Source: Siccirubricoccus deserti (GTDB taxonomy: Bacteria > Pseudomonadota > Alphaproteobacteria > Acetobacterales > Acetobacteraceae). From it: a stretch of DNA of 64,000 bases. The position numbers were made by a program, and so were the translations under genes. The stretch is taken from the NCBI RefSeq assembly GCF_014283215.1, contig NZ_JACOMF010000025.1:1-64000 (forward strand), given 5' to 3'. The notes beneath the pieces are model-generated. The model saw only the letters and a program-made list of their open reading frames with translations, searched no databases and was not told the DNA's origin. Shown here in pieces: positions 20,288 through 33,729 of this stretch; the first letter of the stretch is position 1, and each line of letters opens with the position of its first letter.

Positions 20288-20545
20288 GCCGCAACCCTCC
20301 TGACGCCCGGCGCGGCCGAATTGCCGCATGCCACCGGAGCCGGCCTCTCGCAGCCGCCGGCAACGTCATTGTTGCGAGAGCATGGTGGATAAAACCTCAC
20401 CGTGCAGTGCACAACACTGCGACATTGCACAAGGATTGATCGGTCGCTTGACCAGCCGGGCGGCGGGGCTTTCAATCGACGCCTGGCGCGATGCTGCTTC
20501 CCCGATGAACGGCCCTTGAAGCAAGCAACAGGAGGAAATTTCCCG
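20288..20545. other. Upstream region of the amidohydrolase with small inverted repeat
   Basis: No gene is seen. GCAGTG-CACAA-CACTGC at 20404-20420 is a perfect 6-bp inverted repeat about 125 bp before the downstream start and could be an operator. This is weak, position-based inference. Confidence 0.25.
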
Positions 20546-22261
20546 ATGCATACGACGGTGATCCGAGGCGGCACGATCGTTGACGGAACAGGCAAACCGA
20601 GCTTCACCGGCGATGTGGCGCTGGATGGCGACCGCATCGCCCAGGTCGGCGGCAAGGCCGGACCGGGCAAGCGCGAGATCGACGCCGCCGGGCTGCTGGT
20701 CACCCCGGGCTGGGTCGATGCCCACACCCATTACGATGGGCAGGCCACCTGGGACCCGATGCTCGCGCCCTCCTCCTGGCATGGCGTCACCACCATCCTG
20801 TTCGGCAATTGCGGCGTCGGCTTCGCCCCGGTGCGGCGGAAGGACCATAGCCAGCTTATCGGCCTGATGGAGTCGATCGAGGAGATCCCGGGCATCGCCC
20901 TGGCCGAGGGCCTCAAGTGGAATTGGGAGAGCTTCCCCGATTATCTTGACGCGCTCGACGGCATGCAGCGCACCATCGACATCGGCGCGCAGATCCCGCA
21001 CCACCCGCTGCGGGTCTATGTGATGGGCGAGCGCGCCCTGAACCTCGAGGCCGCGACCGCCGACGACATCGCCGAGATGCACCGCCTGACGCTGGAGGGC
21101 ATGAAGGCCGGCGCTTTCGGCTTCACCACCAGCCGCACCAACAGCCACAAGACCCCGACCGGCGGCATGGTGCCCAGCCGCTATTCCGAGATCGAGGAGC
21201 TGATGGGCATCGGCCGGGCGCTGGGCAAGGTCGGCTACGGCGCCTTTGGCATGAACAGCGACTTCGACATCGAGGAGAGCGAGCTCGCCTGGATGACGCA
21301 GCTCGGCAAGGAGACGGGCCGTCCCGTCTGGTTCCTGCTGACCGACCGGCCGACCGATGACCAGCGCTGGAAGCGGCTGATGGATGGCGTGCGCGCCGCC
21401 CGTGCCGCCGGCGCCATGGTGACGGCCCAGGTCCCGGGCCGGCCGGTGGGCGTGATGCTGGGCGCCGATACCGCGCTGAATCCCTTCAGCATCCGGCCCA
21501 GCTACCAGCGGCTGCTGGCCCTGCCGATCGCCGAACGGATGCAGCGGCTGCGCGACCCGGCGGTGCGGGCGGAAGTGCTGGCGGATACGCCCTCCGAGGA
21601 GTTGCTGAACCGCCTCAGCCAGTTCCGCCAGCACATCGTCCGCCGCTGGCACCGCATGTTCAAGCTGGGCAACCCGCCGAATTACGAGCCGGCGGAAAGC
21701 GAGAGCATCGCGGCGGTCGCGCAGCGGGAAGGCCGGACGCCGGATGAGGTGGCCTATGACTACATCGCCGAGGATCCGGCCAACCTGATCTTCTTCCCCG
21801 TCACCGGCTACAACGTCGCCGACCTTGAGGTGACGCGCAGCATGCTGACGGATGACGCGACGGTGCTGGGCCTCTCCGATGGCGGGGCGCATTGCTCCTC
21901 CATCCTCGATGCCGGCATGCCGACCTGGATGCTGATCCACTGGGTGCGAGACCGCAGCCGCGGCCCGCGCCTGCCGCTGGAATTCGTGGTGAAGCGGCAG
22001 ACCAGCGAGACGGCACGCTTCTTCGGCCTGAACGACCGCGGCGTGCTGGAGGTCGGCAAAAAGGCCGATGTGAACGTCCTCGACTTCAACCATCTGCGGG
22101 TGCAGAAGCCCGAGGTGGTGTACGATCTGCCGGCCGGCGGCCGCCGCCTCGTGCAGCAGGCGGAGGGCTACAAGGCGACCTTCGTCTCCGGCGTGCCCGT
22201 CTTCGAGAATGGCGAGCACACGGGAGCCTTGCCGGGCAGGCTCGTCCGCGCCGGCAAATAA
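20546..22261 (+). CDS. Amidohydrolase, N-acyl-D-amino-acid deacylase family
   Basis: A 571-residue metal-dependent hydrolase with GGAGGA upstream of MHTTVIRGGTIVDGTG. The N-terminal beta-sandwich leads to the metal-binding DAHTHYDGQ motif at about residue 60, followed by FGNCGVGFAPVR, which is characteristic of D-aminoacylases. GVLEVGKKADVNVLDF near the C-terminus closes the typical composite domain. The family cleaves N-acyl groups from D-amino acids or related cyclic amides; the actual substrate is unknown. It is convergent with the molybdenum hydroxylase gene and ends at a double hairpin. Confidence 0.85.
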   Translation: MHTTVIRGGTIVDGTGKPSFTGDVALDGDRIAQVGGKAGPGKREIDAAGLLVTPGWVDAHTHYDGQATWDPMLAPSSWHGVTTILFGNCGVGFAPVRRKDHSQLIGLMESIEEIPGIALAEGLKWNWESFPDYLDALDGMQRTIDIGAQIPHHPLRVYVMGERALNLEAATADDIAEMHRLTLEGMKAGAFGFTTSRTNSHKTPTGGMVPSRYSEIEELMGIGRALGKVGYGAFGMNSDFDIEESELAWMTQLGKETGRPVWFLLTDRPTDDQRWKRLMDGVRAARAAGAMVTAQVPGRPVGVMLGADTALNPFSIRPSYQRLLALPIAERMQRLRDPAVRAEVLADTPSEELLNRLSQFRQHIVRRWHRMFKLGNPPNYEPAESESIAAVAQREGRTPDEVAYDYIAEDPANLIFFPVTGYNVADLEVTRSMLTDDATVLGLSDGGAHCSSILDAGMPTWMLIHWVRDRSRGPRLPLEFVVKRQTSETARFFGLNDRGVLEVGKKADVNVLDFNHLRVQKPEVVYDLPAGGRRLVQQAEGYKATFVSGVPVFENGEHTGALPGRLVRAGK

Positions 22262-27994: not shown

Positions 27995-28270
27995 ATGCCC
28001 ACCTTCCGCTTCGCCGAAGCCGCACTGTCATCCGCCAGCCTCGTCAGCGCCACCGCCACCCAGGCGGAGGTCGCCGAGCTGTCCACCACAGGCATCTTCC
28101 TCGGCGACCCCATCGACAACGGCATGCCGTGGCCCGAGTTGGTGACCGGCCTCATCCCGAAACATGCCGCGGTGGTCGAGCTGATGAAGGTGGACATCTT
28201 CCACCCTGGCCCGATCATTGATGGGATTCCTGCCCCGGATCTCGCCCACGACATCAGCCTGTTCGGCTGA
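27995..28270 (+). CDS. Small protein with duplicated PIxxGxPxPxL motif; candidate peptide precursor
   Basis: A 91-residue protein (MPTFRFAEAALSSASLV) with GGGAGA 8 bases upstream. Residues 34-49 (IFLGDPIDNGMPWPEL) and 68-83 (IFHPGPIIDGIPAPDL) are an internal repeat, identical at 8 of 16 positions. The first 30 residues are helical, Ala/Ser-rich and leader-like. It has no cysteine, no signal peptide and no known domain. The radical SAM gene starts 79 bp downstream on the same strand. Precursor plus radical SAM is the classical layout of radical-SAM RiPP loci, so I infer a modified peptide with two core-like repeats. It could instead be a small protein that merely partners with the enzyme. Confidence 0.6.
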   Translation: MPTFRFAEAALSSASLVSATATQAEVAELSTTGIFLGDPIDNGMPWPELVTGLIPKHAAVVELMKVDIFHPGPIIDGIPAPDLAHDISLFG

Positions 28271-28289
28271 AGTTGCAGCCGCCCGGCGC

Positions 28290-28316
28290 GGGCCCTCCCA
28301 CTTGGGCGGAGGGCCC
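28290..28316 (+). terminator. Intercistronic hairpin between small protein and radical SAM genes
   Basis: GGGCCCTCC and its exact complement GGAGGGCCC are separated by 9 bases. No T-run follows, so it may be a leaky terminator or an mRNA-stabilising stem that makes the small protein more abundant than the enzyme. Confidence 0.45.
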
Positions 28317-28349
28317 CCGCCCCCGTGCCTGACTGGTGGTGGAAGGAAG

Positions 28350-29402
28350 ATGATGATGAGCAAGCCGCCCCGCAGCATTGCCGCGCCACGCGTGCTGCAG
28401 ATCCATGTCACCCGTCGCTGCAACCTCAGATGCCTGCACTGCTATTCATCGTCAGGCCCCGAATTCCGGGACGCGTTGCCGGAAGGGCTGGTCTGCGATG
28501 CGATCACCGATGCGGCGGCGCTCGGCTACGGCATGCTGGCGGTATCGGGGGGCGAGCCGATGCTGTACCGGCCGCTGGCGCAGATCCTCGGCCATGCCCG
28601 GCGGCAGGGCCTGGCGACGGCCATCACGACGAATGGCATGCTGCTGGACCACCGCCGCCTTGAGCCGCTGCGCGGAATCCTCTCCTTCATCGCGGTGAGC
28701 CTCGACGGCCCGCAGGAGGCTCATGACCGGATGCGTGCGCGCCCGGGCGCCTTCGCGGCCATGGCCGAACGGCTCGCCGCGCTACGTGACTCCGGCATTC
28801 CGTTCGGCTTCCTCTTCACCCTGACCCAGGCCAGCGCCCGGCATCTCGACTGGGTTGTCGACTTTGCCGCAGCCCAGGGGGCTGCGGCGCTGCAGATCCA
28901 TCCGCTGAGCGAGGTGGGGCGCGCCGCCGGCCATGGCGACGCCGCGGCGCCGCCCGAGCTGGCCACGCCCGACATCGGCCTGGCGGTGCAGGCCGCGCGC
29001 TGCGCGGTTGCGGCGCGCGACCGCCACGCTGGACGGCTGCGCGTGATCGTCGATTACATGCCCTGGCTGCAGGTGCCGAGTGGCGCGGCTGCGGCGCCAG
29101 GCGCGTCACTCGCCGATCTGGTCTCGCCGCTGGTCATCGAAACGGATGGCACGGTGGTGCCGCTGGCGCATGGCTTCGCGCGCGGCCATGCCATCGGCAC
29201 CCTCGGCAACATGGCGCTGTCGGCCATGGCCGATCACTGGATCAGCTCGGGTGGTGCCGGGCGGTTCCAGGCGCTGCTTCGTCGCGTGGCCGGGCAGGCC
29301 TTCGCACCCGGGGCGCCGCCGTTGCTGAGCTGGGCCGACGAGGTGCGGCGGACCGCGGCGGCGGTTCACAATGCCCCGAGCCTTGCCTGGAACGCCGCCT
29401 GA
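28350..29402 (+). CDS. Radical SAM protein with cysteine-less SPASM-like C-terminus
   Basis: About 350 residues; three ATGs follow each other at 28350-28358 behind GGAAGGA, and the third is best spaced. The N-terminal VTRRCNLRCLHCYSS carries the CxxxCxxC that binds the SAM-cleaving 4Fe-4S cluster, and VSGGEPMLY is the SAM-binding GGE motif. Near residue 265, VIETDGTVVPLAHGF followed by GTLGNMAL aligns in position with the SPASM/Twitch segment (DGxVxPC...GN) of peptide-modifying enzymes such as PqqE. The expected cluster cysteine is replaced by leucine and no CxxC follows. It most likely modifies the neighbouring 91-residue protein; the chemistry cannot be deduced. Confidence 0.8.
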   Translation: MMMSKPPRSIAAPRVLQIHVTRRCNLRCLHCYSSSGPEFRDALPEGLVCDAITDAAALGYGMLAVSGGEPMLYRPLAQILGHARRQGLATAITTNGMLLDHRRLEPLRGILSFIAVSLDGPQEAHDRMRARPGAFAAMAERLAALRDSGIPFGFLFTLTQASARHLDWVVDFAAAQGAAALQIHPLSEVGRAAGHGDAAAPPELATPDIGLAVQAARCAVAARDRHAGRLRVIVDYMPWLQVPSGAAAAPGASLADLVSPLVIETDGTVVPLAHGFARGHAIGTLGNMALSAMADHWISSGGAGRFQALLRRVAGQAFAPGAPPLLSWADEVRRTAAAVHNAPSLAWNAA

Positions 29403-32329: not shown

Positions 32330-33571
32330 TCAGAAGCGCGCCGGCTGGTAGGGTTCCGGGCTGACGAAGGGGGTCTCGCCCGTCATCAACTCCGCCAGCA
32401 GGCGCCCGGTGGTGGGGCCGAGGGTCAGGCCCTGATGGGCGTGGCCGAAGGCGCACCAGGCGCCGTTCCGGCCCGGCATCCGGCCGATGATGGGCAGCAT
32501 GTCCGGGGTGCAGGGCCGCACGCCCATCCAGGGGGCGTTGTCCAGCCGATCCATCAGGGGCAGCAGGCCGCGCGCCACCGGCTCCGCACGCTCCAGCTGG
32601 ATCGGGCTTGGCGGCGCCTCGGCATGGGCGAATTCCGCGCCGGTGGTCAGGCGGACGCCGGCACGCATCGGTGCCAGCAGGAAGCCGCTGTCGGTATCGA
32701 GCACCGGACGGTGCAGCACCGCATTGCCGCGCAGCCCGTAATGCATGTGGTAACCGCGCTTGCCGAACAGCGGCGGCGCATAGCCGAGCGGCACGGTCAC
32801 CCGGGCGGATGCGGCGCCGAGCGCGATGACCACCTCCGCCGCCCCGACCGGGCCGGCCGAGGTCTGCACGCGCCAGCCGGCACCGGCAGGCTGCAGGCTG
32901 GTGGCATCGCCGATGGCGAGGCTGCCGCCTGCCTCGGTGAACAGCCGCGCGTAGCTGAGGGTCAGCGCATGCGGATCGCTGACCGAAAGCGGATCGGTCC
33001 AGTGGATGGCGCCGGCCCGTGACACCAGCAGATGCGGCTCCGCCGCCGCCAGGCCCGCTCCGTCCAGCGCGGCGAAATTGACCCCATGTTCCCGGCGCGC
33101 CACTTCGGCCCGCGCCAGCGTCTCTTCCAGCATCCGCGGATCGCTGAACAGCCGCATCCAGCCGATCGGCCGCAGCAGATCCATCGCGTCCGTGCCGCGG
33201 GCGATCGCCAGGTGCTCATCGATGCAGGTGACGATGAGCCGCGCATAGGCCTCCGCGGTGCGGAGGTAGCGGGCCGGTTCCGAATGCCACCAGTAGCGCA
33301 GCAGCGGTGAGGCGAAACCCGGCAGGGCCAGCGGGTGGTAGTAGACGTCGATCGCCCGATTGCGCGCGATGCGCAGAAGCTCCGCGACCGCCCGGGGAAA
33401 CGGGTGGGGGTGCACCGCCTCGCGCTGGATCAGCCCGCCGTTGCCGAAGGAGGCACCCTCCCCCGGCCCTTGGCGGTCCACCAGCACGACGTCATAGCCG
33501 CGCCGCCGCAGGTGCAGCGCCACCGAAACCCCCACCATCCCGGCGCCGAGCACGATCGCCGACCGCGGCAT
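32330..33571 (-). CDS. FAD-dependent amino-acid dehydrogenase/oxidase (DadA-like)
   Basis: A 413-residue DAO-fold flavoprotein. The start MPRSAIVLGAGMVGVSVALH has AAGGGA upstream and places the GAGMVG dinucleotide-binding motif at residue 9. ASFGNGGLI and the C-terminal GVRPCTPDMLPIIGRMP (substrate/FAD region) match D-amino-acid dehydrogenases of the DadA group, which oxidise D-amino acids at the membrane. It is convergent with the histidine kinase and diverges from the amidohydrolase, with 158 bp between. Confidence 0.85.
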   Translation of the reverse strand: MPRSAIVLGAGMVGVSVALHLRRRGYDVVLVDRQGPGEGASFGNGGLIQREAVHPHPFPRAVAELLRIARNRAIDVYYHPLALPGFASPLLRYWWHSEPARYLRTAEAYARLIVTCIDEHLAIARGTDAMDLLRPIGWMRLFSDPRMLEETLARAEVARREHGVNFAALDGAGLAAAEPHLLVSRAGAIHWTDPLSVSDPHALTLSYARLFTEAGGSLAIGDATSLQPAGAGWRVQTSAGPVGAAEVVIALGAASARVTVPLGYAPPLFGKRGYHMHYGLRGNAVLHRPVLDTDSGFLLAPMRAGVRLTTGAEFAHAEAPPSPIQLERAEPVARGLLPLMDRLDNAPWMGVRPCTPDMLPIIGRMPGRNGAWCAFGHAHQGLTLGPTTGRLLAELMTGETPFVSPEPYQPARF

Positions 33572-33729
33572 CCACGCATTCCCTTGCTGATCTGGCCGCC
33601 CATTCTGCGGCGCCGGCCCCCGATCAGCAATGCGCTGCCGCCATCGAATGGCCGGCAGCTTGTGGAGCGAATTCGGATGCGGGAGATTGACCCGGATCGC
33701 CGCCTGTGGCGGCAAAGGAGGAAGCCGGC

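Follow-up and report, generated by a model that had tools for sequence, protein, structure and literature searches.

The window analysed here is a 64,000-nucleotide stretch from Siccirubricoccus deserti (Acetobacteraceae), covering positions 1 to 64,000 of contig NZ_JACOMF010000025.1. At positions 27,995 to 29,402, a gene for a small protein is directly followed by a gene for a radical S-adenosylmethionine (SAM) enzyme. The two genes probably form a substrate/maturase pair of the kind that produces ribosomally synthesized and post-translationally modified peptides (RiPPs), a prediction that we hold with considerable confidence. In its gene layout, with a precursor gene beside the gene of a modifying enzyme, the locus resembles RiPP loci in general. 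The following features were located:

27995..28270, + strand: small protein of 91 amino acids, proposed substrate (precursor) of the radical SAM enzyme (from its sequence, related proteins at loci L011, L018 and L033, and codon composition)
28094..28141, + strand: motif copy 1, IFLGDPIDNGMPWPEL, residues 34-49, motif glycine Gly43 (from sequence)
28196..28243, + strand: motif copy 2, IFHPGPIIDGIPAPDL, residues 68-83, motif glycine Gly77 (from sequence)
28271..28349, + strand: intergenic stretch with a G+C-rich hairpin shortly past the small gene (from folding against shuffled sequences)
28350..29402, + strand: radical SAM enzyme of 350 amino acids with a single CxxxCxxC motif and no SPASM match (from Pfam, NCBIfam, alignment and a structure model)

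The small gene runs from an ATG at 27995 to a stop at 28270. The G+C content at its three codon positions is 0.63/0.47/0.86, compared with 0.74/0.56/0.85 in the enzyme gene and 0.74/0.52/0.88 in a neighbouring kinase gene. It therefore looks coding, its third position resembling that of the neighbouring genes. The encoded protein contains no cysteine and two copies of IFxxxPIxxGxPxP[DE]L, as an earlier note on this DNA had read from the sequence. That note also took the precursor family to be recognisable, which did not hold up: the protein has no match in Pfam, NCBIfam or PHROGs. Rfam at gathering scores gave no match either. The radical SAM gene, placed directly after the small gene in the same note, indeed begins 79 nucleotides downstream, at an ATG at 28350 or 28356, and ends at 29402. 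Its cluster motif occupies residues 24-31. Two general Pfam models, Radical_SAM and Fer4_12, match the enzyme above their thresholds, and it falls into general radical SAM families of PHROGs. The best 25 of its 84 NCBIfam matches all lie far under their cut-offs (top, 102 of 650 bits). Pfam showed no SPASM match at E values up to 1 and no RRE-type domain, the latter being a weak test. Neither partner thus has a specific curated family in the libraries scanned (Pfam, NCBIfam, PHROGs).

Relatives of the enzyme were collected with a profile built from four enzymes, and the best 80 of 102 relatives were taken as loci. The substrates at L009 and L010 are identical to those at L054 and L055, and L008 is probably the same as L041; L008-L010 lie outside the 80. 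Hosts belong to the Actinomycetota, Pseudomonadota, Acidobacteriota, Cyanobacteriota, Planctomycetota, Nitrospirota and others, with one Bacteroidota, and their genera include Nostoc, Bradyrhizobium and Streptomyces. The enzyme/substrate pair recurs in six phyla, or seven if the long-branched L090 is counted. In a quick enzyme tree with SH-aLRT support only, the window, its sister locus L011 (Dankookia rubra) and two Rhodobacteraceae loci (L018, L033) form one branch (support 99). This branch is nested in a 63-row clade (support 97), which places the window enzyme within the core enzyme clade; the corresponding core alignment includes the window and leaves out L035, L067, L080 and L006. The L011 enzyme is 62% identical to that of the window, and a small protein at the equivalent place is 44% identical to the window's in alignment. 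All four loci of the branch share a short substrate type. In their alignment G43 of motif copy 1 and I75, D76, G77, I78 and D82 of motif copy 2 are invariant.

The window sits in a small, rare branch of this wider family. The enzyme is present in one of the three genomes of the window's genus and in four of the 299 genomes of its family, window included; a class-level enzyme profile with a stricter limit found it in one genome of 385, the window's own. A collection of genome contigs and one of plasmids gave no match to the small protein, and its search in the 298 other genomes of the family gave three weak matches, none of them credible (L003-L005, E 0.003-0.006), of which L003 and L005 looked by eye like chance frames. 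An enzyme search of 295 genomes of the family of L033 gave four matches, two of them more distant (L104, L105).

The association of the enzyme with a motif-bearing protein exceeds chance. An open reading frame (ORF) of 60-200 amino acids with the strict motif lies just upstream of the enzyme at 55 of 65 core loci, the window being excluded, compared with only 67 of 2830 control ORFs that carry the motif (Fisher p 2.6e-71, a value that ignores kinship). The strict pattern was written after the motif had been seen, and the count is independent of the substrates picked by eye, whose stops were chosen before substrate alignment and motif listing. An earlier count used a different pattern and pooled the two clades; it scored 45 of 81 loci, as compared with 31 of 2648 ORFs. 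Six of the ten core loci outside the strict count still show a motif: it is present in a frame longer than 200 amino acids (L029, L076), it has only the relaxed form (L018, L033, L043), or it is visible in an ORF cut by the contig edge (L041). The first motif copy in the window has Asp at position -2 relative to the glycine and is also outside the strict pattern. The pairing proposed in the earlier note is thus a recurrent one, and the two repeats correspond to the two motifs conserved in a wider family.

The substrate and the enzyme also occur together at the level of genomes. A profile (A6) was built from 26 substrates of the commonest type. Exactly one match was found in 32 of 35 host genomes, each time with the coordinates of the ORF adjacent to the enzyme; most of the matched substrates went into the profile, and the new information is the lack of further copies. 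In the genus of genome G236, the same three of 35 genomes carry both enzyme and substrate, side by side; all three substrates are in A6, and the new information is that the other 32 genomes have neither. A6 has three strong matches among genomes of the window's family, and these are the three other enzyme-bearing ones. Two weak matches, in G150 and G043, lie inside frames of 1182 and 670 amino acids and were taken as chance. A phylum-level search with a substrate profile found none in 309 genomes, a set that held no positive control. A small protein occurring widely without the enzyme, which the earlier note had named as grounds for dropping the pairing, was not seen for the commonest type; the window type is missed by A6, so that this answer does not extend to it.

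A number of observations weigh against the pairing and against the window's place in it. The motif substrate is absent at 14 of the 15 loci of an outgroup clade, where a strict-motif ORF lies upstream at the remaining one, and at L006. Within the core, no motif-bearing partner was seen at L021, L053, L059 or L071 (L053 has an RGS tag). No motif ORF was seen either at the more distant L104 and L105, whose enzymes are 36-38% identical to that of L033. The three host genomes negative with A6 are those of the window, L018 and L033; in the window genome there was no match at E <= 0.01. The window protein has neither an RGS tag nor a GG leader, and no exporter or protease gene was seen by eye at 22-36 kb of the window. 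The structure model of a substrate described below has moderate confidence. The family place of the window substrate, being missed by A6, rests on the motif, the gene order and the enzyme tree.

The outgroup consists of Saccharothrix and Actinosynnema enzymes (L069, L072, L074, L075, L077-L079, L082-L089) that are 38-41% identical to the window's. Their loci share neighbour genes among themselves. These enzymes are perhaps a separate family with another partner. In the core, the L059 enzyme (match start 3213) lacks the third cluster cysteine as well as a motif partner, possibly as a decayed gene or through a sequence error.

The motif has the rough consensus [F/L/I]-[P/I]-x-G-[I/T/L/Q]-P-x-[P/I]-[D/E] in 138 loosely picked copies, chance ones included; FPxGIPxPD is an example from an upstream ORF. 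In the alignment of 26 substrates, the two motif glycines are the only invariant columns, and one proline is nearly so. Four kinds of substrate can be distinguished. The first comprises 14 peptides of cyanobacteria and gammaproteobacteria whose leader ends in GG by eye (a leader pattern matched 17, three of which were judged spurious). Five of their loci have an ABC exporter with a C39 peptidase: the exporter follows the enzyme with an HlyD gene in between (L048, L056), is found some 1.1-1.2 kb beyond it (L015, L022), or lies more than 4 kb upstream on the opposite strand (L014). Candidate exporters at L038, L047, L071 and L090 are other ABC proteins by sequence. The second kind, which is the commonest, comprises proteins of about 100 residues in which some 40 residues separate two motifs, most of them RGS-tagged proteins; Tat-like signals, identified by eye, at the start of L013 and L023 suggest export of a folded protein. 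The third comprises betaproteobacterial substrates with one motif, and the fourth the window type. By pattern, 35 to 40 of the 62 substrates bear an RGS-like tag. The L014 substrate carries the motif four times. At that locus a second radical SAM-like gene (421 amino acids, by eye) lies downstream of the pair, about 1700-2970 after the match start.

Matches of the substrates to known families are weak. Ten small proteins gave NCBIfam matches for two and Pfam matches for three, all under cut-off; the three strongest all belong to L022, with E 0.019 for ComC, 0.02 for lactobin/cerein and 0.025 for lantibiotic. A relation to NuoB was rejected: its models match one of 26 substrates (best E 0.0016), probably through a shared Gly-Pro-Pro stretch.

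One substrate of the commonest type, L027, was modelled (predicted local distance difference test (pLDDT) 75, predicted template modelling score 0.62). The model has a helix-ββ-helix-ββ arrangement with both motifs at the tips of β-hairpins. A fold search of the PDB found no structure at E <= 0.001; weak similarities were Amuc_1100/PilO/GspM-like, the best with E 0.013. Since this member is predicted to fold and Pfam reveals no recognition domain in the enzyme, the small protein might instead assist an enzyme that acts on something else, as its partner or as a peptide chaperone. We consider this improbable: relatives of the protein are short GG-leader peptides with a repeated motif, some of them near C39 exporters, and the predicted fold of L027 differs from the winged helix of RRE proteins.

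In the substrate/maturase proposal, the enzyme would use one [4Fe-4S] cluster to make a 5'-deoxyadenosyl radical and would modify both x-G-[I/M]-P-x-P-[D/E] copies of the small protein, most likely by abstracting a hydrogen from the peptide backbone near the invariant glycine. We infer four of its elements: that the small protein is modified, where this happens, how many clusters the enzyme has and that the reaction is redox-neutral. The three cysteines of CxxxCxxC are present in 63, 63 and 62 of the 63 core enzymes and are the only universal or near-universal ones; the C-terminal auxiliary-cluster cysteines of SPASM/twitch enzymes were not found in the core enzymes. In thioether enzymes, auxiliary clusters have been suggested to conduct electrons (PMC5682303, excerpt), SkfB carries an extra [2Fe-2S] cluster, and the proteusin epimerases PoyD, OspD and AvpD, which target Val and Ile, have the radical SAM cluster only (both PMC8326336, excerpt). 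The single near-universal cysteine set, together with these facts on clusters, makes a redox-neutral backbone chemistry attractive. Chemistry at the backbone (Cα) rather than a side-chain crosslink has, in our estimate, about an even chance of being correct.

An oxidative crosslink of backbone or side chains at the motif (C-C, C-O or dehydrogenation) is the main competitor and somewhat unlikely. The structure model of the window enzyme (pLDDT 88.6) has SkfB as its nearest fold, followed by DesII and SuiB. SkfB, a crosslinking maturase, is the best solved relative by both profile (E 8.3e-25) and fold (6efn, E 1.7e-15, template modelling score 0.64), and other peptide maturases (SuiB, a sactipeptide/thioether enzyme) are also among the matches. 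However, DesII and BlsE, which act on non-peptide substrates, rank straight after SkfB among the solved relatives, and crosslinking enzymes use C-terminal auxiliary clusters (PMC5682303, excerpt), whereas the core enzymes have only the CxxxCxxC cysteines in near-universal form. No common partner side chain was seen in the substrates. Cysteine occurs within 8 residues of the motif in only 4 of 91 strict copies, and 46 of 62 substrates have none in their last 70 residues. Therefore, a cysteine thioether is rejected as the general chemistry, and the cysteine donors of sactipeptide and ranthipeptide cores are missing. An aromatic crosslink at position -3 is rejected likewise, as F, W, Y or H is found there in 47 of 91 copies and both window copies have Ile. 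Phe35, Phe69 and Trp46 of the window protein are not kept across its branch, so the conserved aromatic partner of triceptides is missing; L048, a GG-type substrate, weakly matches the XyeA triceptide model (E 0.13, 12.4 of 33 bits), which counts against excluding that class. The misfit to the cysteine-thioether and aromatic-crosslink classes noted earlier is thus borne out, while W46, then put forward as a target, is missing in L018 and L033.

Alternatively, the enzyme could be a peptide epimerase that converts a motif residue, such as the mostly-Ile residue at +1, from L to D, in the manner of the single-cluster proteusin enzymes. The +1 position tolerates many side chains: Ile fills it in 55 of the 91 strict copies, but T, L, K, V, Q and M also occur there. 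A Val cyclopropane is likewise rejected as the general chemistry. The core enzymes appear to have the radical SAM cluster alone, judged by cysteine conservation only, and the best-filled further cysteine column holds Cys in 43 of 63. Known epimerases rely on a critical cysteine (PMC8326336, excerpt), but 20 of the 63 core enzymes, including the whole window branch, have no Cys in this column (Leu in the window enzyme), and the L011 enzyme has no cysteine besides the three of the cluster motif. Cysteine-dependent epimerisation is therefore not general in this family. The lack of an RRE-type match also speaks against an epimerase, and we regard this explanation as unlikely.

The apparent single cluster and an invariant glycine at a loop tip would also fit a glycyl-radical-like protein, with the enzyme as an activase that places a stable radical on the glycine. 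This is highly improbable. Nostoc, Bradyrhizobium and Streptomyces are aerobes, some substrates look exported, and the motif does not resemble that of glycyl radical proteins.

The hairpin-tip model and the different substrate kinds can be combined into a broader reading, which we advance tentatively. In this joint reading, single-cluster enzymes would form an undescribed class that modifies an invariant-glycine motif at β-hairpin tips, in folded proteins of about 100 residues as well as in short secreted peptides, across at least six phyla. As part of it, the enzyme might recognise the shape of a loop and not a floppy core peptide.

In the window branch, the fold of each of the four loci has a hairpin shortly 3' of the small gene, with differing sequences. 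Compared with shuffled sequences, its z values are -2.96 (L011), -1.99 (L018), -1.78 (L033) and -0.39 (window, no better than the shuffles). This putative element may favour expression of the substrate over the enzyme. Farther away, a D-aminoacylase-like gene (20402-22261) lies about 6 kb before the pair and a D-amino-acid dehydrogenase-like gene (32330-33715) about 3 kb past it, both identified by eye. Their nearness to the pair is probably a coincidence.

The pair is real, rare and apparently undescribed; no description of the family was seen in the literature searched, though it may have been reported before in other places. Among published surveys of radical SAM peptides, at least one began from a SPASM-containing enzyme subfamily (PMC9062424, excerpt), so a family that lacks SPASM and has a motif of its own could be overlooked. 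With just two genes in the layout, the chemistry is easy to test. If folded substrates are indeed modified in place, the range of radical SAM targets would widen.

Comparison with known systems helps to place the family. With GG-leader peptides and their C39 exporters it shares the 14 GG-leader relatives and the five exporter loci; the window protein itself has no GG leader, and no exporter was seen nearby. PoyD, OspD and AvpD are similar in having the radical SAM cluster alone, but they differ in their RRE and critical cysteine, no counterpart of which was found in the window family, and no family substrate tested reached a Pfam or NCBIfam cut-off. SkfB is the closest solved relative of the window enzyme, but it has the extra [2Fe-2S] cluster and forms cysteine thioethers, whereas the present enzymes have no further universal cysteines and the window substrate is cysteine-free. 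The cyclopropylglycine maturase TvgB is described as a SPASM enzyme that uses Val side chains (PMC9062424, excerpt), whereas the +1 residue may here be Q, K or T; what it would share with the window enzyme is action on a repeated, short, glycine-containing motif.
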